Position numbers and translations under genes: made by a program
Part shown: positions 40,676 through 60,981 of the stretch, piece by piece
Layout: every line of letters begins with the position of its first letter
Position numbering within the stretch: the stretch's first letter is position 1
Assembly: GCF_947503465.1 (NCBI RefSeq)
Contig: NZ_CANNDN010000002.1
Span: 248,001-312,000 of the forward strand
Length of the DNA: 64,000 nt
Direction: 5' to 3'
Origin: an uncultured Tateyamaria sp.
Lineage (GTDB): Bacteria > Pseudomonadota > Alphaproteobacteria > Rhodobacterales > Rhodobacteraceae
Notes under the pieces: model-generated
Seen by the model: only the letters and a program-made list of their open reading frames with translations
What the model was told of the DNA's origin: nothing
Database searches by the model: none

Positions 40676-41908
40676 ATGCAACTGAAGGACCTCGATATCA
40701 TCGTGACCGCCCCGCCTGCGCCGGGTTGGGGTGGGCGGTACTGGTGCCTTGTCAAGGTGACGACCGACACCGGGATTGTGGGATGGGGCGAATGCTATGC
40801 CTCGTCCGTGGGGCCGGATGCCATGCGCGCCGTGATCACGGACGTGTTTGAACGGCACATGGCGGGCGAAAACCCCGAGAACGTCGAACTGATGTTTCGC
40901 CGCGCTTATTCCTCGGGCTTTACCCAGCGGCCGGATCTGACAGTCATGGGGGCGTTTTCCGGGCTCGAGATTGCATGCTGGGACATTCTGGGCAAGGCAC
41001 GCGAGCGGCCCGTATGGGCGCTGTTGGGCGGAAAGATGAATGACCGCATTCGCGCCTATACCTATCTTTATCCCCTGCCCCATCACGGGCTGGACGCGTT
41101 CTGGACCTCGCCCGTGTTGGCGGCGGAGGCCGCGCTTGACTGTGTGGACCGTGGCTATACCGCGGTAAAGTTTGACCCGGCGGGCCCTTACACTCTGCGC
41201 GGGGGTCACATGCCGGGGATGCGCGACATCTCGCAATCCGTCGCGTTCTGCAAGACCATCCGCGAGGCGGTGGGCGACAGGGCCGATCTGCTGTTTGGCA
41301 CGCATGGGCAGTTCACCACCGCAGGGGCGATCCGTTTGGGCCAGGCACTGGAACCCTATTCCCCGCTCTGGTTCGAAGAACCCATTCCGCCGGACGCCGT
41401 TGAGGAGATGGCCAAGGTGGCCCGTGCGGTGCGTATCCCGGTGGCAACAGGCGAACGGTTGACCACCAAGGCCGAATTCGCGCCTGTCCTGCGCAGCGGG
41501 GCCGCGACGATCCTGCAACCGGCTCTGGGCCGCGCGGGCGGTATCTGGGAGATGAAGAAGGTGGCCGCCTTGGCCGAGGTTTATAACGCACAGATGGCCC
41601 CGCATCTGTACGCGGGACCGGTGGAATGGGCGGCCAACGTCCATCTGGCCACTTCCATCCCCAACCTGCTGATGTGCGAAACAATCGAAACACCGTTTCA
41701 TGACCAGTTGATCAAGGGCAGCATCCGCGTCGAGAACGGGTTCATCACGCCCCCCGAAGCGCCCGGGCTGGGTATAGAAGTGGACGAAGACCTGGCGCGC
41801 GCGCACCCCTACACCGGTGATGGTCTGCACCTGCAGATGCAGGAGGCGCCCTGCGATTACGAACGTGGCAACAGCTTTGAAGGCGGTGCGCCTGCGCCGC
41901 GTGACTAG
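40676..41908 (+). CDS. Mandelate racemase/enolase-superfamily enzyme, probable acid-sugar dehydratase
   Basis: 410 residues. An N-terminal capping domain and C-terminal barrel are visible. KFDP in TAVKFDPAGP, the His of LFGTHGQFTT, the metal-ligand region WFEEPIPPDAVEEM, then VATGERLTTKAE and QMAPHLYAGPVEW, are the pattern of D-galactonate/gluconate-type dehydratases more than of muconate cycloisomerases. The substrate is probably a six-carbon acid sugar. It is the last gene of the plus run; its stop codon overlaps the stop of the convergent CIA30-like gene. Confidence 0.82.
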   Translation: MQLKDLDIIVTAPPAPGWGGRYWCLVKVTTDTGIVGWGECYASSVGPDAMRAVITDVFERHMAGENPENVELMFRRAYSSGFTQRPDLTVMGAFSGLEIACWDILGKARERPVWALLGGKMNDRIRAYTYLYPLPHHGLDAFWTSPVLAAEAALDCVDRGYTAVKFDPAGPYTLRGGHMPGMRDISQSVAFCKTIREAVGDRADLLFGTHGQFTTAGAIRLGQALEPYSPLWFEEPIPPDAVEEMAKVARAVRIPVATGERLTTKAEFAPVLRSGAATILQPALGRAGGIWEMKKVAALAEVYNAQMAPHLYAGPVEWAANVHLATSIPNLLMCETIETPFHDQLIKGSIRVENGFITPPEAPGLGIEVDEDLARAHPYTGDGLHLQMQEAPCDYERGNSFEGGAPAPRD

Positions 41909-42429
41909 CGGATCAGGCGCACTGCTGCGACCGCGACATCGGCGTCCATCTCGCGTCCGATGGCCAGGATGCCGATGCGCCGCAATCCCGCTGGATCGAA
42001 AACCGCCTCAGTCCGATGCGGCTTGAATGCAGTGAACGGCAGGTCGATGGTGGTCCACACGGCGGGCGCCGTGAACGTGGTCCGAAAGGACTGCCACGGC
42101 CGGGTAAGCGCATCGGTGCGCAGCCTCAGGTCATACTCCGCGCCATTGCCAAAAACATCAAGCGCGATACCGGTGTAACCGCTTGCGTCAAAGGGTTCGC
42201 CCCCTGCCAGATCAAAGGCGATCTGCACAAAGCCGCCATTGTTGTCGAGCGACACGGTGCCAGTCAGCCGCGTCGCCGCGCGCCCGGCCAGCGCAACTTC
42301 CCGCGCCTGCCCGCGCGACACACCGCCCATCACCGTGTCGGCCACATACTCCCATTCGGGGGTCAGTTCGAAATCATCCGCCATGACAGGCTGACATAGC
42401 AGCGCAACGGCGATTGCCCAGCGGATCAC
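41905..42429 (-). CDS. CIA30-domain secreted protein
   Basis: 174 residues. A signal peptide (about 1-17) precedes one CIA30-like beta domain: WEYVADTVMGGVSRGQ near residue 27, GFVQIAFDLAGGEPFDASGY in the middle and VWTTIDLPFTAFKP later. In eukaryotes CIA30 helps assemble respiratory complex I; bacterial members are mostly exported and of unknown role. The GTG start at 42429 overlaps the preceding stop (GTGA). It is the last gene of the long minus run. Confidence 0.8.
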   Translation of the reverse strand: MIRWAIAVALLCQPVMADDFELTPEWEYVADTVMGGVSRGQAREVALAGRAATRLTGTVSLDNNGGFVQIAFDLAGGEPFDASGYTGIALDVFGNGAEYDLRLRTDALTRPWQSFRTTFTAPAVWTTIDLPFTAFKPHRTEAVFDPAGLRRIGILAIGREMDADVAVAAVRLIR

Positions 42430-43118
42430 GTGCGCGCAGCCTCGAACGCGGCCCAGACGGTTTCGAACTGTTCAAAGTCAATCTGCTTGCCCTTCACCGC
42501 ATCAAATACGATCTTTTCCGACCGCATCAGCGTGGCGATGGCATCCGCCAGCGCCGGGATCACATCCGCAGGGACCACCACGGCCCCGTGCCGGTCGGCA
42601 TGCACCAGATCACCCGGGCGGATGTCGAGCCCGTGGATACGCACCGGCTGGTCATAGTCGATCACATGTACAAAACCGTGGCTGGGGCCGATGGACCCGG
42701 CCACCACCGGATACCCGTCCGCCAGATCACCAAGGTCCCGCATCACCCCATCCGTCAGCGTTCCGGCCAGGCCAAACGCCTTGTGGATATTGGTGTTCAC
42801 CTCGCCCCAATAGGCACCGATGGCATTTGGCACGTCGAGGTCCTGCACCACGCAAACGGACGGGCGCGGGCCTTCTGACATGTACCTGTAGTAGGCCATG
42901 CGCCGCGCCTTGATCACGTCCGGGGCCTCGGTCGGCGGGGCAAGCGCGCGGATGCGGGCCGTGCGCGCATAGCCGACGATCACCCCATCCGGATCGGAGG
43001 CAAGCATCGTACCACGGGTAAACGCGTTGAACCCCCGCTTGCCCTGCGCAACTTCGATGGCGTTGCAGACCGTGGGGGTGTCGACCGACCGCAAAAGGTC
43101 GTGCAGGGCGTTGTCCAT
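42426..43118 (-). CDS. RraA-family protein (HMG/CHA aldolase-like)
   Basis: 230 residues. The RraA/aldolase fold is recognised by the central ALADGYPVVAGSIGPSHGFV and GLDIRPGDLVHADRHGAVVV blocks. The Asp of HADRHG binds the metal in the 4-hydroxy-4-methyl-2-oxoglutarate aldolase group. It may retro-aldol cleave an oxo-acid to pyruvate or oxaloacetate. It is 3 bases upstream of the CIA30 gene and 3 bases downstream of the MetE-like gene. Confidence 0.82.
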   Translation of the reverse strand: MDNALHDLLRSVDTPTVCNAIEVAQGKRGFNAFTRGTMLASDPDGVIVGYARTARIRALAPPTEAPDVIKARRMAYYRYMSEGPRPSVCVVQDLDVPNAIGAYWGEVNTNIHKAFGLAGTLTDGVMRDLGDLADGYPVVAGSIGPSHGFVHVIDYDQPVRIHGLDIRPGDLVHADRHGAVVVPADVIPALADAIATLMRSEKIVFDAVKGKQIDFEQFETVWAAFEAART

Positions 43119-43121
43119 GGC

Positions 43122-44246
43122 CTAGCCCTTTGCCATGGCCGCGCCTTCGGACAGCGCGGTCAGTTTTGCATAGGCGATCTCGGGGTCCACGGACCCAAAG
43201 CCTGCGAAGGTCCCAAAGCCGCAGTCGCTGCCCGCGATCACGCGGTCCGCGCCCACGATATCTGTGAACCTGTCGATGCGCTGGCGCACAACTTCGGGGT
43301 GTTCGACAAAGTTGGTGGTGGTATCGACCACGCCCGGCACCAGAACCTTGTCATCGGGGATTTCGGACTTGCGGTCACGGAACACGGTCCATTCGTGCGC
43401 ATGGCGCGGGTTCGAGGTCTCGAACAGGACATAGCGCGCCTTGGTCGCCATCAGCGTCGGGAACACCGTGTCCATGGGAACGTCGCAGGTATGCGGCCCC
43501 TCGTAATTGCCCCAGCAGATATGCACCCGCACCTTTTCGGCGGGCACATCCGCCAGCGCGTGATTCAGCGCCTCGACATGGGCGTCCGCGATCTTGAGAA
43601 ATTCCGCATCGCTCAGGTCATTGAACAGCATGTGACGCGACAGGGCCAGATCCGGGCAATCCAGTTGCAGGTCCAGACCCGCGCCGACGATGGTTTCGTA
43701 TTCCGCCTTCATCGCATCGGCGAGGGCTGCCAGATAGGCATCGCGGGTCGGGTAGAAATCGTTTTGCAGGAACAGGGAAATCACGCCGGGCGAGGCCGCG
43801 TTCATGAACCCGCGATCCACGCCATGCTTCGCCATCGCCGCCTTGAGGTTGGCAATGTCCTTTTCCAGCTCGCCCTGCCCCTTGCTGCGCACGTCGCCCG
43901 TGCACATCGGTCGGGCATATTGGGGCGTGCCGCCATCGTCGGCCAGCCGCTTGAGGAAGCTTGGAAACTGCTTGAGGTCGGCGGGCGCGTTGCGCGGGCT
44001 GTCGCCGGAAAAGCCGGTATACCGGTCTTTGACATAGGTGGCATAGCTGATCTTGGACGTCTCGCCATCGCTGACGATGTCCACGCCTGCCGCAACCTGC
44101 CTGGCCACGGTATCATCCACGGCGTCCGCCATCGCGGCGTCGAACGCCACCTGGTCATAGGCCTCTTCCCGTTCGCGGGCAAAGATGAAGTCGACGACCT
44201 TCTGCGTGCGGGGCAAGGACCCGACATGGGTGGTGGTCACGGGCAT
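43122..44246 (-). CDS. Cobalamin-independent methionine synthase-like protein (MetE C-terminal type)
   Basis: 374 residues, the length of stand-alone MetE-core or epoxyalkane-coenzyme M transferase type proteins, half that of true MetE. It opens MPVTTTHVGSLPRTQKVVDF. HICWGNYEGPHTCD (the zinc His-x-Cys) and AGSDCGFGTFAGFG near the C terminus are the metal-site blocks. It probably transfers a methyl or alkyl group to or from a thiol. True methionine synthesis is unlikely because the N-terminal folate half is missing. Confidence 0.78.
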   Translation of the reverse strand: MPVTTTHVGSLPRTQKVVDFIFAREREEAYDQVAFDAAMADAVDDTVARQVAAGVDIVSDGETSKISYATYVKDRYTGFSGDSPRNAPADLKQFPSFLKRLADDGGTPQYARPMCTGDVRSKGQGELEKDIANLKAAMAKHGVDRGFMNAASPGVISLFLQNDFYPTRDAYLAALADAMKAEYETIVGAGLDLQLDCPDLALSRHMLFNDLSDAEFLKIADAHVEALNHALADVPAEKVRVHICWGNYEGPHTCDVPMDTVFPTLMATKARYVLFETSNPRHAHEWTVFRDRKSEIPDDKVLVPGVVDTTTNFVEHPEVVRQRIDRFTDIVGADRVIAGSDCGFGTFAGFGSVDPEIAYAKLTALSEGAAMAKG

Positions 44247-44258
44247 TCTAGGTCTCCT

Positions 44259-44870
44259 TCAGATCTTGCGCGCCATCAGGACGGAATGGCGGTTCGTTTC
44301 AGGGTCTTCGGCCAGAAAGCCGGTCAGACGCAGGCCGTTGGCCTCAAAGCATGTGGCATATTCGGCAGGCGACAGCGAGGCATGATAAACAGGTTCGTCT
44401 CCGACGGTGCCCTGCGCCTCGCCCGCGTCGGGGCCCACGGTCAGCATCAGGACACCGCCGGTCACAAGGTGCCGGGCCATGCGCGCGATGCACGTGCGCT
44501 GCGCCTCCGCCGTCAGGTGGAAAAAGCTGTTCCAGGCGATGATGCCGTCAAACACCTCGCCCAGATCAAAGTCGCGCATGTCGGCCTGGCGCCAATCGCC
44601 ATCGGGCCAGCGGGTGCGCGCGATGTTCAGCATGGGTTCGGAAAAATCGACACCCGTCACCACGAACCCTTCGGCCTTGAACCAGCGTGCGATGGGTTCA
44701 CCCGTACCACAGCCAAGGTCCAGGACACGCGCACCGTCCGGCAGCCCTGCGGCAAAGCGCGCCAGCCAGCGCGCCTCGAACAGGGCGCGCGAGCGTTGGG
44801 CGTCATAGACCGCCGCCTGACGGTCATAGACGCCCTGAATATCGTCGGGCGTGCCGCTCATCCCATCCAC
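44259..44870 (-). CDS. Class I SAM-dependent methyltransferase
   Basis: 203 residues. VLDLGCGTGEPIARWF is the SAM loop, VTGVDFSEPMLNIAR the acidic ribose-binding loop, and FDGIIAWNSFFHLT and LVTGGVLMLTVGPD follow as motifs IV and post-IV. It is unrelated in sequence to the methyltransferase at 14049. It ends 12 bases before the MetE-like gene and overlaps the cupin gene by 13 bases, so it is expressed within the minus run. The acceptor is not known. Confidence 0.82.
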   Translation of the reverse strand: MDGMSGTPDDIQGVYDRQAAVYDAQRSRALFEARWLARFAAGLPDGARVLDLGCGTGEPIARWFKAEGFVVTGVDFSEPMLNIARTRWPDGDWRQADMRDFDLGEVFDGIIAWNSFFHLTAEAQRTCIARMARHLVTGGVLMLTVGPDAGEAQGTVGDEPVYHASLSPAEYATCFEANGLRLTGFLAEDPETNRHSVLMARKI

Positions 44871-45823
44871 GTTGGGCCGGCAGGATCTTCGGTGCCGACG
44901 ATATGATACAGGGATGCCTCGCCCGTCATCGAGGGCACAGCATTGTGGGCCAGGTTCTCAGGCACGCTCATGGTGTCGCCGGGGGCCAGCGTGGTGCTGC
45001 CGCCCTCCCATGTGACCTTCCAGTGTCCGCGCATGGGCATCAGGACCGATGGCGTGTCGTGGCTGTGCATGTCCTCAGACGCGCTTGATCTTGTGATCAG
45101 GTCCACTTCGAATCCCGGCTTGTCACGGATGATCCCCGTCTCACCTATCACCTTGCACGGCGTGTCCTTGGCCAATGCCACCATGTCCCAATACCGACGC
45201 ACGCCGTAGCCCACCACCTGCATCGGGGTCATCTCCGGGAACTCGTTCAGCGCCTCGTCGCTGAGCAGCGGCATGGGACCTATGCCCTCAGGCAGGCTCT
45301 CGCCCTTCTTGCTGTCGTAAAGGCTGCCGTTTTCACCAAGCACCAGGCCATGGGCGCTGGCATCCTCGATCACCTGCGGGGCCCAGATCACACCGCCACC
45401 GGCATCGTCACCGCCAAGAATCGCCATGATCATCCCGTAATCCGTGCCGATATTTTCAAACCCGCGGAAGATGCCCGTGGGGATGTTGATGATGTCGCCC
45501 TCTTCCAGCACCACCTCGCCCGCGTCGCCCCAACGGCCCCAGAAGAACCGCCAGCGGCCCGACAGGACAAAGAACACCTCGGCCGTGCGGTGGCTGTGCA
45601 GGCTGTTGCGGCATTTGGGGGGCTGGCCCGCCGCCCCGATGTTGAAACCGTGGGGGATGCCGATGTGCACATGCTGATCGGGGGATTCCGACACACCACC
45701 GCCGATGATTGTGAAGTTTTCCTTCTGGTCCGACCCCGGCGTGTGCGCGTCGATGAACGCGGTCTTGCAGGGCATCAATTCGCCGTAACGCACGATGCGC
45801 GGCTCCATCTCGGCGGGGGTCAT
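44858..45823 (-). CDS. Double-cupin domain protein
   Basis: 321 residues, two cupin barrels. First: RNSLHSHRTAEVFFVLSG (about 65-82) with EEGDIINIPTGIFRGFEN. Second: EDMHSHDTPSVLMPMRGHW (about 245-262) with APGDTMSVPENLAHN. The paired His suggest a metal-binding dioxygenase or isomerase of the bicupin class, for example gentisate- or homogentisate-like. It overlaps its upstream neighbour by 4 bases and the methyltransferase by 13. Confidence 0.78.
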   Translation of the reverse strand: MTPAEMEPRIVRYGELMPCKTAFIDAHTPGSDQKENFTIIGGGVSESPDQHVHIGIPHGFNIGAAGQPPKCRNSLHSHRTAEVFFVLSGRWRFFWGRWGDAGEVVLEEGDIINIPTGIFRGFENIGTDYGMIMAILGGDDAGGGVIWAPQVIEDASAHGLVLGENGSLYDSKKGESLPEGIGPMPLLSDEALNEFPEMTPMQVVGYGVRRYWDMVALAKDTPCKVIGETGIIRDKPGFEVDLITRSSASEDMHSHDTPSVLMPMRGHWKVTWEGGSTTLAPGDTMSVPENLAHNAVPSMTGEASLYHIVGTEDPAGPTWMG

Positions 45824-46356
45824 TGGGTGGTCCTTTCAAATGGAAGTGTTGGATCGGGCAGCGCGGTGCCCGGTGTGGACTGAGTGACATCGGCGTGGAT
45901 CCAGACCATACGGTCCACGAACCAGACCTTGGGCAGGATGGTCGCGATCAGGCCCAGCACCGTGGCCCACGGGTTCAGAACGATCAGCCCATAGATCAGG
46001 GGCAATGCGCCCATCGCCGACAGCGCCGTCAGCACATGTGCCGCGCGGATATGATGCGGGGCGACGTCGTATTCGGCACGTGCAAGGAAAATCCGTTCGC
46101 CCAACGTGCCCCGCGATGCCCACGACCCGAAATCCTCTGGCGGCCGGAAGGCACGCGGGTTGACCCATGTCCAAACCGCCGCCAACAGGACCAGGGGCAG
46201 CGCCCACCACCCGATCCACTGACGCGCATATATCGCCAGAACCAGAAGCGGCAAACACGTGAACCGCGTCCAGACGCTCAGCGGGTTGGCATGGCGCCGC
46301 CAGTCCGTGTCCTGCATGCCCATCAGACGTTCAGCGGCGCGGTAGATGTCCATCAT
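45820..46356 (-). CDS. Conserved membrane protein (DUF6653-like)
   Basis: 178 residues with about four membrane segments (about 30-45, 49-65, 105-125 and 128-145). The RHANPLSVWTRF and WTWVNPRAFRPPEDFGSWAS blocks resemble the DUF6653 group, though I am unsure of the family number. It overlaps the PPOX gene (4 bases) and the cupin gene (4 bases). The function is unknown. Confidence 0.6.
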   Translation of the reverse strand: MMDIYRAAERLMGMQDTDWRRHANPLSVWTRFTCLPLLVLAIYARQWIGWWALPLVLLAAVWTWVNPRAFRPPEDFGSWASRGTLGERIFLARAEYDVAPHHIRAAHVLTALSAMGALPLIYGLIVLNPWATVLGLIATILPKVWFVDRMVWIHADVTQSTPGTALPDPTLPFERTTQ

Positions 46357-46967
46357 CCCTGCCCCTTCACTGCGGCCAGTTCCGCCTCAAGCGCGGCTAT
46401 GCGGGCGGCTTGCTTGTCCAACTCGGGACCGACAAGCTGCGCGATCTCGGACGCATCGAACCGTGGCGTGATGAATTGCGGACAGTTCCAGTCAAACGCC
46501 TCCACGGCGATGGTGACAACCCGCTCGACCCGGCCCTGCCCATCGACTGCGACCTGTTCGGCAAGCGCCGCAGTGTCACAGGCATTCTGGAACGTGGCGC
46601 GGCCCTGCACCTTCATCCGGGCCTTGCGCGGGTAGTCCATCAGAAACAGCGACACGCGGTTGTCACCCGCCACGTTGCCTTCGGAAATGTGCTGCTTGTT
46701 GCCACGATAATCGGCAAAGGCCAGCGTATGATCGTCCAGCACGGTCAGGAACCCGGCAGGCCCGCCGCGATGTTGGATGTAAGGCCAGCCGGTCTCGGAC
46801 ACCGTGGCCATGTAGAACGACGTGCGCGCGGCGATGAACGCCAGCTCATCAGGGCCAAGCGCGCGGGTGCGCGCGCCGTAGCTGCGCGCATACATGTCCG
46901 CAGAGCCGTCGGCCTCCTGCAACGCTTTCACAGCGTCCGTGAACATGATGTCGTCGTAGCGTTTCAC
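46353..46967 (-). CDS. Pyridoxamine 5'-phosphate oxidase-fold flavoprotein
   Basis: 204 residues. The PPOX split barrel is evident: SFYMATVSETGWPYIQHRGG (about 50-69), FADYRGNKQHISEGNVAGDN (flavin phosphate site) and VSLFLMDYPRKARMKVQGRA. The last 40 residues form a coiled coil (LDKQAARIAALEAELAAVK). Members reduce or oxidise small molecules with FMN; a role in vitamin B6 synthesis is not implied. It lies 45 bases downstream of a SnoaL-like gene. Confidence 0.82.
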   Translation of the reverse strand: MKRYDDIMFTDAVKALQEADGSADMYARSYGARTRALGPDELAFIAARTSFYMATVSETGWPYIQHRGGPAGFLTVLDDHTLAFADYRGNKQHISEGNVAGDNRVSLFLMDYPRKARMKVQGRATFQNACDTAALAEQVAVDGQGRVERVVTIAVEAFDWNCPQFITPRFDASEIAQLVGPELDKQAARIAALEAELAAVKGQG

Positions 46968-47011
46968 ACCCCTAAACCTTCATTGTTCCAAAAATATGCA
47001 AAATCCCGACC

Positions 47012-47980
47012 TCAGCCCGTCTGCAACAGGATCTGCTTCCAGATCGCCGTCTCGTCAAACAGCGTGTATTCGCGGCGCAGGCCCCAGGGGCCGAACTCGG
47101 CATGGGAAATCCCCAGCACGTACACCTCGGCCCCCGTCGGCGCACCGAAATAGCCCCAGCCGTCATGTTTGCCATGCAGCGCCCAGCGGATGGCGGCGCG
47201 CGGCGGCATCAAATCATCATCGCGGCCAATCTGGTGGTCGATAGTGAATGTCGCGTCGGGAAAGGACGCCCGCAGGCCCATCCAGAACCGGTCAACCGGG
47301 CCGTGACTGTGGCCCGTCACGCCGCCCGGATATTCGGATTGGACGGCGCGGTCATACTCTGCCGGGATGACCGCCATGTCTGCGCCCATGATCCGGGTCA
47401 GGATATCCGCATAGGTCTGGCCCCAGGCGTTGTCATTGCCACGGCCCTTGTAGGGGCCGGGTTTATCGGTGGCGGGTGTGAGCGGGCGCACCGCGTTCTC
47501 TCCCCCGCCCTCTCGTTCGATCAGGTCGGCGGCATATTCCTTGGCGTCCCAGCCGATCTGGTTCACGATGGCGGTCTGATCCCGGATCAGCCACTCGTCA
47601 TTGATCTGGTCGTTGATCGCATGGCAGTCCGCAATGATCCGGTAGGTCAGCTTCTTGCCCGATGCCTTGCCGTAAACGCCGTCGGCCATGTGGGTCGCGG
47701 TCGACAGCAGCCGGTGCGACGACAGCATCCCCTCTTCCGGTGTCCCGCTCCAGATCACATCCTCGCCCAACAGCGTCCGGTCCGGGAACTCGGCCAAGGT
47801 CGCCATCGTGGCCCCAATGACCTTTTCGTTGCCTATGACCACAGATGCGGGCGACCGCACCACGATGTCGGGGCTGTAGTAATGATGCAGGGTCGCAATG
47901 CCGCGATCTTCCCAGATCTCCTTGGTGATGCCGATGATGTAGTCGGGGAAATCCTTCCACCGGTTCGAAAAACCCTTCAT
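47012..47980 (-). CDS. Long SnoaL/NTF2-like protein (two-domain type), divergent member
   Basis: 322 residues. It begins MKGFSNRWKDFPDYIIGITK and has two NTF2-like halves (about 10-130 and 180-315), the second with DATFTIDHQIGRDDDL and HAEFGPWGLRREYTLFDE. It is the most diverged of the four long SnoaL-like proteins of the locus. The ATG at 47980 overlaps the LacI stop (ATGA); an ATG three codons earlier is within the LacI gene. The NTF2 fold includes polyketide cyclases, dehydratases and binding proteins, so the reaction is unknown. Confidence 0.68.
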   Translation of the reverse strand: MKGFSNRWKDFPDYIIGITKEIWEDRGIATLHHYYSPDIVVRSPASVVIGNEKVIGATMATLAEFPDRTLLGEDVIWSGTPEEGMLSSHRLLSTATHMADGVYGKASGKKLTYRIIADCHAINDQINDEWLIRDQTAIVNQIGWDAKEYAADLIEREGGGENAVRPLTPATDKPGPYKGRGNDNAWGQTYADILTRIMGADMAVIPAEYDRAVQSEYPGGVTGHSHGPVDRFWMGLRASFPDATFTIDHQIGRDDDLMPPRAAIRWALHGKHDGWGYFGAPTGAEVYVLGISHAEFGPWGLRREYTLFDETAIWKQILLQTG

Positions 47981-48993: not shown

Positions 48994-49006
48994 CATCAGG
49001 CCCCCA

Positions 49007-51815: not shown

Positions 51816-51818
51816 GGT

Positions 51819-53147: not shown

Positions 53148-53156
53148 GTCCTCACC

Positions 53157-53687: not shown

Positions 53688-53715
53688 GTTCGTACTCTCT
53701 GTTTGATCCGCAGGA

Positions 53716-53760
53716 CCGGGGCGCTGCCCCGGACCCCGAAGTATTTCTAGCCAGAAGAAG
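53716..53760 (+). repeat. Intergenic hairpin repeat, copy D
   Basis: Hairpin CCGGGGC-GCT-GCCCCGG (53716-53732), then ACCCCGAAG and TATTTCTAGCCAGAAGAAG. The last 19 bases are identical, in inverted orientation, to copy E at 60968. It lies 3 bases after the permease stop. Confidence 0.7.
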
Positions 53761-53763
53761 ACA

Positions 53764-54915
53764 TCAGCCCTTCACCGCACCTGCTGTGAGGCCCGACACG
53801 ATCTGGCGCTGGAACACCATCACAAGCAGGAACAGGGGGGCGGTGATGGACACGGCGGCGGCAACCGCCTCGACCTGGTCGGTCGTGGTGGTTTCACGGT
53901 TGAAGTAGCCCGCGATGGCCGGAACCATCGTCTGGTTCTGCGCATCCAGCAGCAGGGCGGTCACCAGAAAGTCGTTGTACCCCAACAGGAAGCTGAAGAG
54001 ACCCGTCGTGATTACCCCGGGCCACATGACCGGCATGATCACGCGGCGGAACGCCTGGAAGTGCGAACAGCCGTCGACCCGCGCCGCCTCGTCCAGTTCG
54101 GACGGGATGTTCTGGAAGAACGAGCGCAGCATCCAGATCGTGAAGGGCTGGTTGATCGCCACCAGCACCGCGATGATCGCCCAGGGCTGGCCATAGAGCG
54201 TCGGGCTGAGGTCGCCCAGGATCGGACGCAGGATTTCGGCCGAATTGATGAACCACGGCAGGTACCCCGCCACCAGGACCGAATGCGGCAGGGCGCGGAA
54301 GACAAGCGCGATGATCAGAAGCCAGAAGGCCAGGTTCGAGCCCGAGCGGGCCAGCCCGTAGCCCGCGAGCGTGCCCACCGTCAGCGACACCGTCACAACA
54401 CCCGCCGTCACGATCATGGAGTTCATGAAGTTGCGGTAGAACTGGTTTTCGCCCCAGACCGCCACGTAATGTTCCGTCGTCAGGCCCAGAATCGGGGTGC
54501 CCAACGGTCCGGCAATGCCGTTCAGTGCACCCGAGATGTAGGGCAGCGCGCCCAGGAAGATCAGCACGAACAGAAGGCCATAGACCGCCGCCCCCACCAG
54601 CCAGCCCAGCACGATCCATCCCGGCGGCGAAAACTGCTGAACCAGCCCCGGAAGTCGGGTGAAGGCCCAGCGGATGGCCAGGTAGAGCACGACCAGCCCC
54701 AGCAGGATGTCGAGGAAGCTGAGACCGTTGCCGGCGGCCCGTGTGGCCGGCCCGGTGATCACGTTCCACGCGCTGGCATCAAAGGCGTCGCGCGGGGATT
54801 TCACGCTCATCACGGCGATCCAGACGATCGGAAAGGCCGCGATCAGGCACCAGAAGGCAAGGAACGCGCCCGATGCGACCTTGAGCGACAAGGGCTGTGC
54901 GGTGGCTTTACTCAT
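53764..54915 (-). CDS. Sugar-type ABC transporter permease (MalG-like) with extra membrane segments
   Basis: 383 residues, about 100 more than usual. The EAA loop ELDEAARVDGCSHFQAFRR, which contacts the ATPase, is near residue 285. After TM1 an unusual insertion (about 55-125) adds two hydrophobic segments, FLDILLGLVVLYLAIRWAF and WIVLGWLVGAAVYGLLFVL. The core TMs follow. It is paired with the permease at 54943 and served by the ATPase at 58844. It imports the substrate bound by the protein at 57527. Confidence 0.9.
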   Translation of the reverse strand: MSKATAQPLSLKVASGAFLAFWCLIAAFPIVWIAVMSVKSPRDAFDASAWNVITGPATRAAGNGLSFLDILLGLVVLYLAIRWAFTRLPGLVQQFSPPGWIVLGWLVGAAVYGLLFVLIFLGALPYISGALNGIAGPLGTPILGLTTEHYVAVWGENQFYRNFMNSMIVTAGVVTVSLTVGTLAGYGLARSGSNLAFWLLIIALVFRALPHSVLVAGYLPWFINSAEILRPILGDLSPTLYGQPWAIIAVLVAINQPFTIWMLRSFFQNIPSELDEAARVDGCSHFQAFRRVIMPVMWPGVITTGLFSFLLGYNDFLVTALLLDAQNQTMVPAIAGYFNRETTTTDQVEAVAAAVSITAPLFLLVMVFQRQIVSGLTAGAVKG

Positions 54916-54942
54916 TGCTGTTTTCCTTTGGAAAAACGGACA

Positions 54943-55971
54943 TCAATGCGCCCCCCCTTTGTGGTCGCGCCAGGTGCGGCGCAGTGGCAGGATCAGCAGG
55001 ATCACGATGCCTACCATGGTCAGCATGGCGCTGGCGGCGGCCCGGCTGATGGCCCGGTTGCCTGCGTCATCCGGTGTCAGGAAATCGAAGGTCAGCCATT
55101 GCAGGGAAATGACATGCGCCTGGCTGCGGAAGCCGATGATCTCGTCAAAGACGCGGTAGCAGTCCATCAGGTGGATCAGCGCGATGAAGATGATCAGCGG
55201 CATCAGGTGCGGCACGATCACATAGCGCAGACGCTCGAACCGGTTGGCGCCGTCGATGATGGCGCTCTCCAGCGTGTCCATGTTCACCGTTTGCAGGCCC
55301 GCATAGAAGATCACGAAGGCAAAGGGCGCCACGTGCCAGACGCGGTAGAAATACATCAGCAACTCGATCGTCCAGGCCTGCGCGAACATGGCAATGTCCT
55401 GACCCGTCCAGCGTTCCAGCGTGGCGGTCAGAATGCCGTCGCCCACGAACAGCCAGTAGATCGACAGCGACCCGATCACGGGCGTGATGATAAAGGGCAG
55501 AAGCGACACGAAGATCACCGGGCCGCGCAGCGACTTGGCCGCGTTGTTCACGGCCAGCGCGATCATCAACCCCACCCCGACCACCAACGGCAGCGTCACC
55601 AGCGTGAACATGAGCGTGAAGCGCAGCGCCTTCCAGAAGTCGATCTGCAGGATCTCGCCCCAATTGCCCGACCCGATGGCGGCCCAGAACTTATCCATCT
55701 GCAGCACGTTCTGGTAGCTTTGAAAGCCCACCCATTCCGTGGTGGTCTGGGTCCTGCCCGTTTCCTCGTCAATGATGGGAACCGTCTTGACCTCTGTCAC
55801 GCAGGTCTGAGTCAGGAAGCCCGGCGTGCAGGTCTCGACCTCGATCTGCTGCATGACGGGCTGCGTGATCTGAAAGGACTGGATAAAGACCGAAATCAGC
55901 GGTGCCGCGATAAAGAGCAGCATCATGAAGACCGACGGGGCCACGAACCAGAAGAACGTCTTGAACTTCAT
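54943..55971 (-). CDS. Sugar-type ABC transporter permease (MalF-like)
   Basis: 342 residues. TM1 (about 7-25) is followed by a long periplasmic loop with two Cys (TCTPGFLTQTC, about 45-55) and then GFQSYQNVLQMDKFW, as in MalF/UgpA types. Five further membrane segments and the EAA motif ESAIIDGANRFERLRYVIVP follow. The start at 55971 overlaps the GMC stop by 4 bases (ATGA); the frame is open further upstream but that part is not a protein. Confidence 0.9.
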   Translation of the reverse strand: MKFKTFFWFVAPSVFMMLLFIAAPLISVFIQSFQITQPVMQQIEVETCTPGFLTQTCVTEVKTVPIIDEETGRTQTTTEWVGFQSYQNVLQMDKFWAAIGSGNWGEILQIDFWKALRFTLMFTLVTLPLVVGVGLMIALAVNNAAKSLRGPVIFVSLLPFIITPVIGSLSIYWLFVGDGILTATLERWTGQDIAMFAQAWTIELLMYFYRVWHVAPFAFVIFYAGLQTVNMDTLESAIIDGANRFERLRYVIVPHLMPLIIFIALIHLMDCYRVFDEIIGFRSQAHVISLQWLTFDFLTPDDAGNRAISRAAASAMLTMVGIVILLILPLRRTWRDHKGGAH

Positions 55972-57473
55972 GCTGCTTTCCTTTCCGCAGCGGCGGCCAC
56001 ATGGCCACCGATTTGCCACCCGATCATCATGGACGGGGCATTGGTGTTGGCGGATGTGATGCGCGGCATGACCGATGCGTCCGCAACCCACAGGTTCCCG
56101 ATCCCCCTGACGGCCCCGTGCGCATCAAGCGGGCCGCCCAGGGCCACGGTGCCAACGGGATGATAGGCCGTGCCCGCGCGCGTGCGGATCGCCTCGCGCA
56201 ACGCGTCACCAGTCACGGCCTTGCCGGGGAACCCTTCCGGGGCGCGGCGCGCGCCAAACGGCGCCGTATCCAACACTTGGCGCAGGCGTTCGACCCCCTT
56301 GACCATCATGTCCAGGTCCCACGCATCGCCAAAAAGGTTCAGATCGATAAGCGGTTTGTACCTGTCCCTGCCCATCGCCAGACGGCCGCGCGACCGCGGT
56401 TGGCACAGGCACACATCCGCGAAATACCCCGATCCCCAGATGATCGCCCGGCCCTGCCAGCCCATCAGGAAGGGCAGGAAATGGGTCTGGATGTCGGGCA
56501 CGGCGCTGTCGGTCACGCTGTAGAAGGCGCCCGCCTCGACCGTGTTCGATGTCAGACGGCCCGTGCGGGTCAGCAGCCATTGCAGCGGCGACAGGGCCCA
56601 CGCGGGCAGCTGGCCCAGCGTCAGGCCATAGCCGGACCCGCGCCCTTTGAAATGCAGGCCAAAGCCCGGGTGATCATGCAGGTTTGCGCCGACACCCGGC
56701 GCATCGATACGCACGTCAATGCCGTTGCGTGTCAGGTCCGCACCCGGACCAATGCCCGAGCGCATCAGGATCATCGGGCTTTCAATGCTGCCTGCGGACA
56801 GCACCACGCCCGCACGCGCTTGCAGGGCCCGCCCGTCACGCAGCACCACACCGGTGACGCGGTCCCCGTCAAAGGTCAGGTGATCCACTTCCGCATCCGT
56901 GACGACATCGGCCCCGGAGGGTCGCAGGAAGCCGTCCGCCGCAGACCAGCGCGCGCCGTTGCGCATGTTGGTGTGAAAGACGCCCGCGCTCTGGCGTTCG
57001 GGTGTGGGCGGCGCCTGTGGATCATTGGCGGGAAACACGCGGCCGAATGCGTCGGACAGGGGATGCGGATGCGGCAACCGCGCGGGGGTCATCCGCGCTT
57101 CCACCGCCTCGAAGGCGCGCCAGACCGTGTCGCTGTCCCAACCGGGCAGGCCCCAGGCGTCGAAATCGGCACGCGTCCCGCGAAACCAGACCATGGAGTT
57201 GATCGACCCCGATCCACCCAGCATACGCCCGCGCGGCACGGAAACGCGACGGTCCCCGGCGGCGGCCATGGGCACTGTCTCGCGCTTCCAGTTGCGGACA
57301 TCCGACCGCATCAGGTTCACCAGACCAAAGGGCACCTTCACCCGAATGTCGCGATCCGATGGGCCCGCTTCGATCACGCAGACCCTTGCATTTGGTCGTT
57401 CGGCAAGACGCGCTGCCACCGCGCATCCAGCAGAGCCACCGCCCACAACGATATGATCGTAGTCCCGTGTCAT
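55968..57473 (-). CDS. GMC-family FAD oxidoreductase
   Basis: 501 residues. The FAD loop VVGGGSAGCAVAARLAERP starts near residue 9. VPRGRMLGGSGSINSMVWFR is the GMC signature 1, and GTAYHPVGTVALGG and NTNAPSMMIG at the C terminus hold the catalytic His and Asn. Relatives oxidise alcohols such as choline, polyethylene glycol or sugar alcohols. A place between the binding protein and the permeases points to the imported molecule as substrate. The start at 57473 follows a GGGGG site. Confidence 0.9.
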   Translation of the reverse strand: MTRDYDHIVVGGGSAGCAVAARLAERPNARVCVIEAGPSDRDIRVKVPFGLVNLMRSDVRNWKRETVPMAAAGDRRVSVPRGRMLGGSGSINSMVWFRGTRADFDAWGLPGWDSDTVWRAFEAVEARMTPARLPHPHPLSDAFGRVFPANDPQAPPTPERQSAGVFHTNMRNGARWSAADGFLRPSGADVVTDAEVDHLTFDGDRVTGVVLRDGRALQARAGVVLSAGSIESPMILMRSGIGPGADLTRNGIDVRIDAPGVGANLHDHPGFGLHFKGRGSGYGLTLGQLPAWALSPLQWLLTRTGRLTSNTVEAGAFYSVTDSAVPDIQTHFLPFLMGWQGRAIIWGSGYFADVCLCQPRSRGRLAMGRDRYKPLIDLNLFGDAWDLDMMVKGVERLRQVLDTAPFGARRAPEGFPGKAVTGDALREAIRTRAGTAYHPVGTVALGGPLDAHGAVRGIGNLWVADASVMPRITSANTNAPSMMIGWQIGGHVAAAAERKAA

Positions 57474-57526
57474 CTGTCCCCCTCGAAAGCGGCTGGCCAG
57501 GGACACCCCCGGCCAGCCGATTTTGC

Positions 57527-58747
57527 TTACTCCAGCACGCCGGCTTCCTTGGCCGAGGTCGTGTAGGCCTCGGTCACGGCAACAAGCGTTGCTTCCGCGT
57601 CACGCTCGCCCGTCAGGAAGGCAGGCAGCTCGTTGCCCAGCGCGGTGTGCAGCAGACCCATCTGCGTGGTCGACGGGTATGCAGGCGGGGCCGGGTTCGC
57701 CGTTGCGGTTGCAATCGCACCTTCGGCCAGCGGGCCGGGCTCATACCCGTTCACAAGCCAGATGGCCGCTTCGTTGTTGGCGGTGACCATGTCGCTGTCC
57801 AACCCTTCCATCGCCAGACGGAACGCCGCATCGGCTTCCTCGTCCGTGATGTTGGCGGCGATCACGATACCGTCCCACCACAGCGTGGTGGCAGGCGCGC
57901 CGCCATCCATCGCCACGGGGGCCGCGGCCATCTTGACCTTGCCCACGACCTGGCTTTCTGCCTCGTCATTCATCGCACCGGCGCGGCTCGCCCACAGGTT
58001 CGCCATGGCGATCTTGCCCTGCTGGAACTGCTGCTGCACATAGGTGCTGTCACTGACCAGCACTTCGGGATCGGTGAACTCAAGCGTGGCCTTCATGGTC
58101 TCCAGCGCCTTCATCCCGGCGTCGGAATTCACGGCGGTGGTGTTGTCGTCATTGAAGAACGCGCCACCAAAGCCGGGGTACATGTTCACGAATTCCTGGG
58201 CCAGGTTCCAGCCGGATTTCATGGTGGCACCAATGGCGTGGTCCACGACACCGGCGGCTTCGATCTTCTCGGCCGCGGCAAACACTTCGGTCCACGTGGT
58301 GGGCGTGTCGATGCCCAGATCGCTGAAGATATCCTCGCGGTACATCAGGTGCTGGGTGTTCACCATCATGGCGACGGCCATGATCTTGCCATCCACGCGG
58401 ATCAGCTGGTTGGGCGACAGGTTCTCACCATATTTCGCGACCAGATCGTCCAGCGGACGGATGGTGCCCGCGTTCAGCAGCGGGGTGATGGTCCCGTTCG
58501 ACACGCCGCCGATATGGTACAGCGACGGGTTGGCTTCGAATGCCGCAGGTTGCTTGGTGCGGAATTCCTGATCCAGTTCGGCCTGGAAATTGCCGCACTC
58601 GGCCATGGCATCCGTCACCGCTTTCCAGGCTTCAAACCCGGCAGACAGCGACTTCAGCGGCACGTCATTTTCATAGGAACACGCGGCAAAGGCCGTGGTC
58701 CCCAAAAGCGAGATCGCGCCCGCAAGTGCCAGTTTCTTCAAATACAT
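57527..58747 (-). CDS. ABC transporter substrate-binding protein, sugar type
   Basis: 406 residues. A Sec signal peptide (MYLKKLALAGAISLLGTTAF, cleavage near residue 21) is followed by a cluster-B-like binding protein: DEEFRTK-type early block, MVNTQHLMYREDIFSDLGID and WWDGIVIAANITDEE. It captures the solute in the periplasm. The ligand cannot be deduced, but the family handles sugars and polyols. The ATG at 58747 has GGGAG 8 bases upstream. It is the second gene of the transporter operon, after the ATPase. Confidence 0.9.
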   Translation of the reverse strand: MYLKKLALAGAISLLGTTAFAACSYENDVPLKSLSAGFEAWKAVTDAMAECGNFQAELDQEFRTKQPAAFEANPSLYHIGGVSNGTITPLLNAGTIRPLDDLVAKYGENLSPNQLIRVDGKIMAVAMMVNTQHLMYREDIFSDLGIDTPTTWTEVFAAAEKIEAAGVVDHAIGATMKSGWNLAQEFVNMYPGFGGAFFNDDNTTAVNSDAGMKALETMKATLEFTDPEVLVSDSTYVQQQFQQGKIAMANLWASRAGAMNDEAESQVVGKVKMAAAPVAMDGGAPATTLWWDGIVIAANITDEEADAAFRLAMEGLDSDMVTANNEAAIWLVNGYEPGPLAEGAIATATANPAPPAYPSTTQMGLLHTALGNELPAFLTGERDAEATLVAVTEAYTTSAKEAGVLE

Positions 58748-58843
58748 ATGCAAACTCCCTGTTGCGTTTTGCGCCAGTGCATCTTGCAAGTCTGCACCGG
58801 CCTGATTTGGGCAATCCGGGTGCCCCCGGACCGCCGGCTTCCC

Positions 58844-59890
58844 TCAGGCGAGACGTTCGCCTGACTCGGAATCGAAGGCGTGGCAGATGCCCGCCGGGAC
58901 CGAAAACGACACGCTGTCGCCAATCTCGGCCCGAAACTCCTTGTGCGCCTTGATCGACACCAGTTGCCCGCCCGCGCGCACGGTCAGCATGGTGGCATCG
59001 CCCAAAAGCTCGATGGTGTAGATGGGGGCCGTGATCTGGCCGCCCGTGTCGGCCAGGGCGGCGTCTTCGGCGCGAAACCCCAGGGTCGTCGGGCCGTCAG
59101 GGGCGGTCAGGCCGCTGATCGACACATTGACACCGGTAAAGGTACCGCCGGCCATCGTGCCCTCCATCAGGTTCATCGCCGGAGAGCCGATGAAGCTGGC
59201 CACGAAGGTGTTGGCGGGCCGGTCATAGATTTCGGTCGGCGTGCCGACCTGCTGCACCTTGCCCTGCTTCATCACCACCACGCGGTCGGCCAGCGTCATG
59301 GCCTCGATCTGGTCATGGGTCACATAGACGGTGGTGACCTTCAATTCGTGGCTGAGGTTCTTGATCTGCGCCCGCGTCGACACCCGCAGCTTGGCATCCA
59401 GGTTCGACAGCGGCTCGTCCATCAGAAACACGTTGGGCTCGCGCACGATAGCGCGGGCCAGGGCCACGCGCTGGCGCTGCCCCCCCGACAGTTCGGCAGG
59501 CTTGCGATGCAGGAAATCATCCAGCTCGACCATGGCGCTGGCGCGGCGCACCTTCTCGTCATGGGTGGCCGGGTCAACCTTGCGCACCTTCAGCGGAAAG
59601 CGGATGTTCTCGTAGACATTCAGGTGCGGGTACAGACCATAGGACTGGAACACCATCGCCACATCGCGGTCCTTGGGGTCCAGATCGTTGACGCGCTTGC
59701 CGTCGATGACAATGTCCCCTTCGGTGGCGTCTTCCAGGCCTGCGATCATCCGCATCGTGGTGGTCTTGCCACAGCCCGACGGGCCCAGCAGCACCAGGAA
59801 CTCTTCATCCGCGATGGTCAGGTCGAAATTGTCGACCCCCACAAAGGACCCCCAACGCTTGTTGATGTTGCGCAGCTGAATCTCTGCCAT
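58844..59890 (-). CDS. ABC transporter ATPase, UgpC/MalK type
   Basis: 348 residues. Walker A GPSGCGKTT begins at residue 36, the signature LSGGQRQRVALARAI is near 135, Walker B VFLMDEPLSNLDAKLR is next, and the switch His is in VYVTHDQIEAM. A C-terminal TOBE/OB regulatory domain (about 240-348) marks the sugar-importer group. It is the first gene of the minus-strand operon and is divergent from the SnoaL gene at 59995. Confidence 0.94.
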   Translation of the reverse strand: MAEIQLRNINKRWGSFVGVDNFDLTIADEEFLVLLGPSGCGKTTTMRMIAGLEDATEGDIVIDGKRVNDLDPKDRDVAMVFQSYGLYPHLNVYENIRFPLKVRKVDPATHDEKVRRASAMVELDDFLHRKPAELSGGQRQRVALARAIVREPNVFLMDEPLSNLDAKLRVSTRAQIKNLSHELKVTTVYVTHDQIEAMTLADRVVVMKQGKVQQVGTPTEIYDRPANTFVASFIGSPAMNLMEGTMAGGTFTGVNVSISGLTAPDGPTTLGFRAEDAALADTGGQITAPIYTIELLGDATMLTVRAGGQLVSIKAHKEFRAEIGDSVSFSVPAGICHAFDSESGERLA

Positions 59891-59955
59891 GGGACCCCCC
59901 GTCCGATAGGTTGATGAATAAGGCTAGACATCCGCCCCGCGACTTGGCAACTCTT

Positions 59956-59975
59956 TTTTGCACACGTGTGCAAAA
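59956..59975. promoter_or_regulatory. Perfect 20-bp palindrome, probable LacI-type operator
   Basis: TTTTGCACACGTGTGCAAAA is an exact palindrome with the central CG step usual for LacI-family operators. It lies in the 104-base region between the ATPase gene (start 59890) and the divergent SnoaL gene (start 59995), so one site could control both. A LacI regulator is encoded in the same locus (47977-48993). Confidence 0.75.
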
Positions 59976-59994
59976 TCAACCGGGCACAGGTCAC

Positions 59995-60981
59995 ATGACA
60001 TCAGATATCTCCGCAGTGCGACAGGGGTTGCACGCCATTTGGGCCGCCGAGGATGCCGCAGCGCAGCAGGCGTTCAGAACCTGTTTTGCACCTGATTGCG
60101 CTTTCTTTTTCTCGCATCCGGTGAACACGCCGCAAGACGCCTGGGCCGATGTCTATGCCCCGGTTCGCGCTGCACTGCGGCACGCGCGGCGCCGCGATGA
60201 AATTTTCATCTCCGGTCAAAACCGCCGCGCGGTGGGCGGCACCTGGATCGCGTCCTTCACCCACTATGTCGGCACCTTTTCCGCGCCATTATGGGGCCTC
60301 ACCCCATCGAATCGCCTCGCCTTCCTGCGCGCGGGTGAATTCTACCGGGTCGATGGCGACACGATCATCGAGGCACGGATCATCCTCGACCTGCCGGACC
60401 TGATGCGCCAGGCCGGGCGCGATCCGTTCGGCGGGCGCCTGGGGACCGAGATGCTGTTTCCCGGTCCCGCCACCCATGACGGGATATTGCCCATGGGCAA
60501 CGGCACGCAAAGCCTTGATTTAATTGAATCCATGCTGGGCGACCTGCATGTCTACGACCCCGAAACCGGCGCCTCCAAAGGGCAGACGGGCCGGGACGGA
60601 TACTGGGCAGATGACATGCTGTGGTACGGGCCGGGCGGGATCGGATCGAATTACCGCTGGGACGGGTTTGTCAAAGACCACCGCGCACCGTTCCTTGCCG
60701 CCTTTCCCGACCGCAAGGGCGGCAACCACTATGCCCGCATCGGCATGGGCAACTACGCCGCCATCTCGGGCTGGCCGTCGATGACAATGACACATCGCGG
60801 CCCCTATCTGGGCGTCGCCGCAACAGGCAGGGACCTGACGCTGCGCGTGATGGACTTCTATCGCTGCGCCGACGGTCAGATCGCCGAAAACTGGGTGATG
60901 CTTGATTACATGGACCTGTTTCGGCAAATGGGCGTCGACCTCATCGCACGATCAAACGCCCTGCCCCCTTCTTCTGGCTAG
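59995..60981 (+). CDS. Two-domain SnoaL/NTF2-like protein, divergent from the ABC operon
   Basis: 328 residues with two NTF2 halves (about 5-145 and 180-318). The second half has WYGPGGIGSNYRWDGFVKDH, FLAAFPDRKGG, VMDFYRCADGQIAENWVMLD and RQMGVDLIARSNA, the same order as at 49765 and 50811. The ATG at 59995 has only a weak AGG site. The last residues PPSSG and the TAG stop are written in the hairpin repeat E that follows. It shares the 59956-59975 palindrome with the transporter operon. Confidence 0.8.
   Translation: MTSDISAVRQGLHAIWAAEDAAAQQAFRTCFAPDCAFFFSHPVNTPQDAWADVYAPVRAALRHARRRDEIFISGQNRRAVGGTWIASFTHYVGTFSAPLWGLTPSNRLAFLRAGEFYRVDGDTIIEARIILDLPDLMRQAGRDPFGGRLGTEMLFPGPATHDGILPMGNGTQSLDLIESMLGDLHVYDPETGASKGQTGRDGYWADDMLWYGPGGIGSNYRWDGFVKDHRAPFLAAFPDRKGGNHYARIGMGNYAAISGWPSMTMTHRGPYLGVAATGRDLTLRVMDFYRCADGQIAENWVMLDYMDLFRQMGVDLIARSNALPPSSG

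Follow-up and report, generated by a model that had tools for sequence, protein, structure and literature searches.

SnoaL has a catalytic aspartate, and an acid-x20-Arg-Asp motif forms the metal and substrate site of the 4-carboxy-4-hydroxy-2-oxoadipate (CHA)/HMG aldolases of the RraA family. Mycosporine-like amino acids (MAAs) are sunscreens made by many algae, corals and cyanobacteria, and their core, 4-deoxygadusol, is a cyclohexenone that carries an O-methyl and a hydroxymethyl group. Among HisD-family dehydrogenases, the accessible part of the work on CpHpsN describes His126 as the sulfonate reader, acting with Lys353 (PMC11382572), and Vibrio harveyi has been reported to convert shinorine and porphyra-334 to mycosporine-glycine and 4-deoxygadusol, according to the accessible part of PMC3083659, which cites Dunlap and Shick. 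Here we describe a locus that combines SnoaL-type, HisD-family, RraA-family and MetE-like genes with a sugar-type ABC importer, in a 64,000-nucleotide stretch (the window) of an uncultured Tateyamaria sp. (contig NZ_CANNDN010000002.1, forward-strand positions 248,001 to 312,000). The locus consists of 19 minus-strand genes (41905-59890, from the ATPase gene to CIA30) and a divergent SnoaL gene (59911-60981), and the open reading frame coordinates show that adjacent genes in 41905-59890 either overlap or are separated by gaps of at most about 80-125 bp. Our analysis makes it probable that this is one dedicated catabolic regulon for a methylated substrate, with a pathway that ends in aldol cleavage.

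Results

The locus is one co-conserved gene unit

Pfam and NCBIfam scans of the 20 window genes gave the families listed in Table 1, and all the genes that an earlier note on this DNA had named in a minus-strand run were recovered where it had placed them. That note saw in them a single import-and-catabolism unit, which it would have given up if the genes were not co-conserved. We compared the window genes with 80 loci, which are the best HisD matches of 462 confirmed in GTDB genomes, and counted a gene as present when at least half of it was matched. These loci come mostly from roseobacters (e.g. Tateyamaria, Roseobacter, Ruegeria, Shimia, Sulfitobacter and Leisingera), the set being biased to near relatives because it was picked as best HisD matches, and since no locus extends further than 10 kb from HisD, the counts for CIA30 and for genes beyond it are too low. 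All 13 core genes were found in 67 of the 80 loci, and in the same order in all 67. The other 13 comprise loci that appear to be truncated, either at the flank or where a contig stops (L040, L042, L060, L094 and L095), loci that lack only MetE (L052, L068, L076 and L110) or only RraA (L105), and loci that lack much of the set (L071, L082 and L092). The earlier note had listed the GMC, PPOX, methyltransferase and CIA30 genes on a par with the others; the MetE-like gene is a member of the core, and the GMC, PPOX, DUF6653, methyltransferase and CIA30 genes are accessories (counts in Table 1), while Snoa3 is accessory or variable.

A less biased test was provided by 292 Rhodobacterales genomes, searched with thresholds that also admit paralogues elsewhere in a genome (E up to 1e-20 for Snoa2-like, 1e-60 for MetE-like and 1e-40 for cupin matches). 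Snoa2-like, MetE-like and cupin genes were present in 131, 122 and 134 of these genomes, respectively, with all three in 120 and none of the three in 155. The co-occurrence of Snoa2 with MetE gave a Fisher p of about 6e-66, uncorrected for relatedness, and the best Snoa2 and MetE matches lay at most 20 kb apart in 95 of 107 genomes from among the 120 having both. A phylum-wide draw of 398 genomes contained Snoa2 relatives in 22: 16 in the own family (own genome counted), 1 elsewhere in the class and 5 elsewhere in the phylum. Two rhizobial loci (L140 and L142) retain the roseobacter form, L140 without MetE. Altogether, the locus is not a chance cluster: it is one co-conserved unit, as the earlier note had supposed, with one gene order and the common operator-like site described below.

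On a plasmid of Octadecabacter arcticus (L145, 2584-21287), the locus stands amid transposase genes, with the ATPase gene in two fragments plus an intact copy.

A conserved palindrome precedes a variable importer

When up to two mismatches are allowed, the genome contains a single match, the perfect palindrome TTGCACACGTGTGCAA at 59958-59973, which has no mismatch. Since a backward control also gave one match per strand, this uniqueness is weak evidence; within the window the palindrome has one match, and shuffles average 0.34 matches at up to three mismatches. Conservation across loci is stronger evidence: in 73 of 75 loci, TGCANNCGNNTGCA occurs no more than 300 bp ahead of the ATPase gene (median distance 46 bp), and three other sites occur in the same loci. 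We take TTGCACACGTGTGCAA to be the predicted operator of the LacI protein encoded in the unit. Across the 80 loci, the substrate-binding protein (SBP) and permease 1 fall into identity classes of about 80-95, 66-70 and 40%, while the ATPase stays near 76-96%, as if importer specificity had been swapped between loci, perhaps by recombination.

The HisD-family enzyme differs from HpsN and from histidinol dehydrogenase

Among solved proteins, the window HisD scored best against DHPS (2,3-dihydroxypropanesulfonate) dehydrogenases (383 bits) and then against histidinol dehydrogenases (247 bits). It carries the motif GKFPM at the place of His126 of HpsN. We aligned 125 sequences (123 of the locus type, with some genomes represented twice and the window copy included, plus the own HpsN-type protein and the own HisD), and found His126 replaced by Met or Leu in 123/123 locus-type sequences and Lys353 kept, so that an anionic group other than sulfonate is the likely ligand. 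The own genome holds a separate HpsN-type protein that keeps His126 (L155, PGGRYSH), and the gene after it encodes a Zn alcohol dehydrogenase, an arrangement like that of hpsN-hpsP. The genome also has a separate HisD (L156, PGGLASYP, with Tyr at the Lys353 place); the locus HisD is 46% identical to the former and 36% to the latter. A small tree separates the three types; built from 20 of the 126 sequences and containing a single HpsN-type protein and a single HisD, it shows this separation and not an order of descent. The locus HisD is therefore a third subfamily, which probably acts on a non-sulfonate anion by oxidising a CH2OH that neighbours a Zn-bound hydroxyl.

An identity as histidinol dehydrogenase was rejected, as the HisD-type motif is missing and the own HisD is encoded elsewhere in the genome. 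Likewise, the sulfonate-like substrate that the earlier note had entertained was set aside, together with an HpsN role in DHPS catabolism, in view of the replaced His126 and of the separate HpsN-type gene with its adjoining Zn alcohol dehydrogenase gene. An SDR of PF13561, the family used for HpsO, sits three genes from HisD, and a gene that looks like a Zn alcohol dehydrogenase (39459-40607; assigned by look) lies 11 kb from it and recurs in at least 3 of the 80 loci within the 10-kb flank.

A core MetE-like gene points to a methylated substrate

The MetE-like protein consists of the catalytic half only, the folate domain being absent. Residues H242, C244, E276, C342, S10, E62 and D196 are conserved in at least 97% of 77 MetE-like sequences; we take the first four to be Zn ligands and the last three to be homocysteine residues. 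The protein thus has the make-up of a core-MetE, namely a catalytic domain alone with His/Cys/Glu/Cys Zn ligands and homocysteine residues. This gene is core in the unit and points to a methylated substrate, and the enzyme probably uses an undescribed methyl donor. According to the accessible part of PMC12366255, a mutant in the Mes-like gene PGA1_c27430 of Phaeobacter inhibens DSM 17395 still shortens its lag with dimethylsulfoniopropionate, which makes this compound an unlikely methyl donor; the work on the mutant names no donor. The knock-out primers given there translate to AFIDAH (cupin), PLLLL (alpha/beta hydrolase) and IGAYWG (RraA); because they read cupin, alpha/beta hydrolase and RraA sequence, PGA1_c27430 is almost certainly, from the published primers alone, the MetE-like gene of the same locus. 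Six PGA1_c27xxx tag stems near this mes-like gene were named in no paper that we found beyond PMC12366255, and a targeted search of the MesA-D paper (PMC7857596) yielded nothing on the MetE-like family of the locus.

Relatives of 51-53% identity adjoin a single NTF2 gene and an IclR gene in two sphingomonads, one Sphingobium and one Novosphingobium (L158, 12001-14291; L162, 9001-11293), a triad in which MetE-like and NTF2 proteins may be put to a second use together. Within about 10 kb, these loci also hold aminomethyltransferase-type, MTHFR and purU genes, along with ligAB in Novosphingobium, and the neighbourhoods look like a methoxyl-C1 setting. On a Dietzia plasmid (L159, 8986-11183), a MetE-like gene (47%) overlaps a 2-oxoglutarate/iron oxygenase-type gene.

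Five SnoaL-type proteins are encoded in the locus

The locus encodes five SnoaL-type proteins, four with two domains and one with a single domain, or about nine NTF2 domains, and they are distributed as the earlier note had reported, with four genes on the minus strand and a divergent fifth. All five carry a SnoaL domain over the Pfam cut-off, and the 4.1-Mb genome has 16 SnoaL_2 matches, of which 6 fall inside this 19-kb stretch. The count of five that had caught attention is correct here without being the usual one: four SnoaL genes are present in 53 of the 80 loci and five in 10. True Snoa3 orthologues seem to occur in only some loci, and of the 77 loci with a match to Snoa5 (median identity 36%), 51 have the best one in divergent orientation to HisD. 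The NCBIfam model for the SnoaL/DnrD methyl-ester cyclase was not reached, Snoa4s scoring 40 of the 200 bits required and the other four proteins being unlisted. By E-value, the solved structures nearest the AlphaFold model of Snoa2 (mean pLDDT 91) were those of MonB and Lsd19, two-domain epoxide hydrolases that superpose poorly on it overall (TM about 0.3 of the query), and single SnoaL proteins superpose on one Snoa2 domain (target TM about 0.75-0.8). Each of the two domains contains one Asp that does not vary in 42 aligned sequences (D136 and D314 in alignment numbering).

SnoaL genes also occur in other settings. At a second place in the own genome (L166, 7103-8119), a two-domain SnoaL gene stands next to NtrY/NtrX-type regulators, and none of the seven proteins scanned around it belongs to a transporter family. 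A Phaeobacter piscinae plasmid (L144, 5094-12903) carries a second kind of SnoaL/ABC/LacI cluster, with no HisD in the stretch, in which three SnoaL genes flank a sugar-type importer and a selenium-binding protein gene adjoins.

Two unrelated aldolase families occupy one slot

The RraA residues E106, R127 and D128 are conserved in at least 97% of 75 sequences and form an acid-x20-Arg-Asp site, with Glu standing where the CHA/HMG aldolase has Asp as first acid. The window protein weakly matches the CHA aldolase of PDB 3noj (E 0.0019, the fourth of four matches). In three distant loci (L147, L149 and L153), RraA was not found in the sequence as fetched, and an HpcH/HpaI-family aldolase, with HpaI and GarL as best models below the equivalog cut-offs, lies beside HisD, SDR, cupin, LacI and SnoaL genes. 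These loci as fetched also have no ABC importer and contain an SSS symporter instead (identified by a scan in L147 and by eye in the other two), and two of them carry a TonB receptor (by eye). That two unrelated pyruvate-type aldolases can fill the same slot speaks most strongly for aldol cleavage as the last step, which we consider likely. Of the oxidation followed by retro-aldol cleavage that the earlier note had envisaged, oxidation is supported and the cleavage probably so.

As for the bicupin, H53, H76, H78, E82 and R120 are present in 86/86 sequences, with an HxHx3E motif in domain 1, while the domain 2 ligands are not conserved. Its model (pLDDT 87.5) shows two cupin domains. Quercetin dioxygenase is the nearest structure, followed closely by MncA, the vicilins, oxalate decarboxylase and salicylate dioxygenase (TM about 0.5). 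Because several families are similarly near, the fold alone leaves the reaction unassigned; a role as dioxygenase is plausible.

Table 1. Features of the locus, in order from the divergent gene. Core and accessory refer to presence among the 80 loci.
Feature	Position	Strand	Basis and occurrence
Snoa5, divergent two-domain SnoaL sharing the operator region	59911..60981	+	Pfam SnoaL 77 bits
LacI-type operator candidate	59958..59973	.	perfect palindrome TTGCACACGTGTGCAA, between Snoa5 and ATPase gene
ABC ATPase, UgpC/MalK type, core	58844..59890	-	Pfam ABC_tran; NCBIfam UgpC 449 bits (cut-off 432); 76/80 loci
Substrate-binding protein SBP_bac_1, core	57527..58789	-	Pfam; best PDB 5iai, E 5e-17; 75/80 loci
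GMC oxidoreductase, accessory	55968..57506	-	Pfam GMC N and C; 7/80 loci
ABC permease 1, sugar-type, core	54943..56091	-	Pfam; 75/80 loci
ABC permease 2, sugar-type, core	53764..54915	-	Pfam; 76/80 loci
Snoa4s, single-domain SnoaL, core	53157..53687	-	Pfam SnoaL 65 bits; 77/80 loci
HisD-family dehydrogenase, third subfamily, core	51819..53147	-	motif GK[FY]P[ML] + GDK, 123/123; 80/80 loci
Snoa3, two-domain SnoaL, variable	50811..51815	-	Pfam; best matches in loci median 33% identity
Snoa2, two-domain SnoaL, core	49765..50814	-	Pfam SnoaL 85 bits; 77/80 loci
SDR, KduD-like, core	49007..49768	-	Pfam adh_short_C2; NCBIfam KduD best, below cut-off; 77/80 loci
LacI-family regulator, core	47977..49029	-	Pfam; 80/80 loci
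Snoa1, two-domain SnoaL, core	47012..47989	-	Pfam; 79/80 loci
PPOX flavoprotein, accessory	46353..46967	-	Pfam; 22/80 loci
DUF6653, accessory	45820..46356	-	Pfam; 13/80 loci
Bicupin, candidate ring-cleaving dioxygenase, core	44858..45823	-	conserved residues, two-cupin model; 77/80 loci
Class I SAM methyltransferase, accessory	44259..44870	-	Pfam; 31/80 loci
MetE-like Zn methyltransferase without folate domain, core	43122..44246	-	Pfam Meth_synt_2 only; 70/80 loci
RraA-family aldolase candidate, core	42426..43118	-	Pfam RraA-like; 71/80 loci
CIA30, accessory	41905..42429	-	Pfam; at least 12/80 loci (10-kb flank)

Next to the locus, convergent plus-strand genes at 36893-41908 of the window look like a lyase, an MFS transporter, a Zn alcohol dehydrogenase and an enolase-type MR gene, and the latter adjoins the locus in at least 12 of the 80 loci (10-kb flank).

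Candidate substrates

What is needed is a substrate that is polar enough for a sugar-type importer, that has a methyl group movable by Zn and a carbinol with a CH2OH, whose ring a cupin can cleave and whose breakdown ends in a 4-hydroxy-2-oxo acid. The 4-deoxygadusol core meets all of these requirements, and the tertiary carbinol of MAAs with its CH2OH would yield CHA by HisD-type oxidation. We tentatively favour the view that the locus is a regulon under LacI control whose products take up and mineralise MAAs or other gadusol-type C7 cyclitols. Family chemistry suggests the following steps. The ABC importer would take up the MAA, and several SnoaL-fold proteins would hydrolyse its enaminone and imine C-N bonds to give glycine, serine or threonine and 4-deoxygadusol. 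By transferring the O-methyl group of 4-deoxygadusol, a reductone ether, to homocysteine, the MetE-like Zn enzyme would then produce methionine and desmethyl-4-deoxygadusol, an enediol ketone. With O2, the bicupin may cleave the enediol ring between C2 and C3 to 4-hydroxy-4-(hydroxymethyl)-2-oxoadipate, whose CH2OH the HisD-family enzyme would oxidise to COOH, giving CHA, and the RraA-family aldolase would split CHA into pyruvate and oxaloacetate. We also considered a CO-releasing, quercetinase-like cleavage ending in citrate after HisD, which the aldolase makes less likely.

Observations from other loci are weakly in line with MAA breakdown. An L-serine ammonia-lyase lies close to a SnoaL gene in L151, in L143 and L163 according to their annotation, and in L150 and L152 as judged from the start of the sequence alone, and a Halobellus locus on a saltern haloarchaeal plasmid (L139) holds five SnoaL genes, a MetE-like gene and an aldolase/citrate lyase-family gene. 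A sarcosine oxidase operon was found in L138 and L163.

Several observations weigh against an MAA substrate. The link of the genes to MAAs is one that we infer from their families. The serine lyases stand mostly beside a different, HisD-less arrangement and none is found in L138, and the sarcosine operon may be a mere bystander. MetE is absent from L140 and L149 as fetched and from the four loci of the 80 named above, and both haloarchaeal loci examined around a MetE-like gene, as well as the Dietzia locus, have no SnoaL neighbour, so that a MetE-like gene alone is no pathway marker. The RraA protein falls far short of the NCBIfam cut-off for LigK, the CHA aldolase (28.8 of 304.5 bits). The cupin does not have the 3-His-1-Glu site of quercetinase, as R120 takes the place of the fourth His in 86/86 sequences, and its TM-scores to quercetinase are about 0.5, with seed storage vicilins ranking close by. 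The nearest relatives of the SBP, ABC and LacI proteins are of sugar type. Finally, an L-fuconolactonase-like amidohydrolase and a PcaD-like hydrolase occur in 36 and 35 of the 80 loci, respectively (one representative of each was scanned, with family matches below cut-off); the window unit has neither, and these two enzymes and the SDR have no fixed place in the MAA scheme and would fit an O-methyl sugar acid better.

The main rival explanation, in our view a somewhat unlikely one, is that the locus serves to catabolise an O-methylated sugar or sugar acid. The SDR or GMC enzyme would oxidise the sugar to a lactone, the amidohydrolase would open it and HisD would oxidise a terminal CH2OH next to a CHOH, after which the MetE-like enzyme would remove the methyl and an RraA or GarL-type aldolase would split a 2-keto-3-deoxy acid. 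This route accounts for the sugar-type importer and regulator and for the KduD-like SDR; both hydrolases suit lactone or sugar-acid steps, a GarL-type aldolase replaces RraA in the distant loci, and the enolase-type MR gene, assigned by look, is convergent in at least 12 of the 80 loci. The 13 core genes, however, include neither a sugar-acid dehydratase of a known family nor a sugar kinase, an unactivated alkyl methyl ether is a poor methyl donor to homocysteine, and we know of no sugar pathway with several SnoaL genes.

A methoxylated aromatic substrate, demethylated by the MetE-like enzyme, cleaved by the cupin and passed to RraA as the CHA aldolase of the 4,5-cleavage/gallate route, seems improbable. 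RraA does fall in the CHA aldolase family, the cupin fold is also near salicylate dioxygenase, and MetE-like relatives lie near aminomethyltransferase-type genes in two sphingomonads and near ligAB in one; yet the Pfam and NCBIfam scans found no LigAB-type gene in the unit, its transporter and regulator are of sugar type, and to our knowledge HisD has no role in such a route. Catabolism of DHPS or another C3 sulfonate, with HisD as HpsN and the SDR as HpsO, is very improbable: the higher score of HisD against HpsN than against histidinol dehydrogenase, the kept Lys353, the PF13561 SDR three genes away and the Zn alcohol dehydrogenase-like gene would suit it, but His126 is Met or Leu throughout, the own genome has an HpsN-type protein with His126, and no sulfolyase family is found among the 20 genes scanned.

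In four loci, L143 (Vibrio europaeus), L150, L151 and L152, a two-domain SnoaL gene stands beside MFS/SSS-type transporters, a porin-like gene, LacI and the L-serine ammonia-lyase. L150 (scanned) and L151 (by eye) also contain a sulfatase; palythine-serine sulfate is a known MAA, according to the accessible part of PMC3083659.

Discussion

The earlier note held that no known pathway has this gene list, and our literature search found none. Nothing was found that combines SnoaL with histidinol dehydrogenase, ABC transporter and Roseobacter, or mycosporine with SnoaL, and the papers listed for MAA degradation were reviews or unrelated work that gave no breakdown genes, in a search that left subscription journals mostly uncovered and may have missed a published pathway. 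It is conceivable, if rather doubtful, that the locus is the first genetic system for complete bacterial MAA breakdown, with SnoaL proteins as C-N hydrolases, O-demethylation to methionine independent of folate and B12, reductone opening by a bicupin and a CHA-making HisD. If MAAs are the substrate, over 40% of the 292 Rhodobacterales genomes sampled carry an MAA breakdown system, of which distant proteobacteria have a rearranged version, and the fate of an ultraviolet-absorbing, nitrogen-rich carbon pool could be tracked in metagenomes. Whatever the substrate, this is a widespread, conserved marine alphaproteobacterial pathway of which we found no description, with a new HisD subfamily, and, according to the accessible part of PMC12366255, a mutant of almost certainly this MetE-like gene already exists in the model strain P. 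inhibens.

The closest described systems compare with the locus as follows. The HisD-family enzyme has the equivalents of Asp352 and Lys353 in common with HpsN (8v35; accessible part of PMC11382572), whereas it carries Met or Leu in place of His126 and has other gene neighbours. Like the core-MetE and Mes methionine synthases (PMC7857596), the MetE-like protein has no folate domain and keeps the Zn and homocysteine residues, but its gene is fixed in a catabolic operon. The RraA protein shares its family and the acid-x20-Arg-Asp site with the CHA/HMG aldolase LigK (3noj), at very low sequence similarity. Similarly, the cupin resembles quercetin 2,3-dioxygenase and other bicupins in its two cupin domains and the HxHx3E motif of domain 1, and differs from them by an Arg for the fourth His and by unconserved domain 2 ligands. 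Finally, the SnoaL-type proteins resemble the SnoaL-type cyclases and Lsd19/MonB in the NTF2 fold, in having two fused domains and in the invariant Asp of each domain, whereas those of the locus stand in a transporter-linked, catabolic setting and their domains fail to superpose as a whole.

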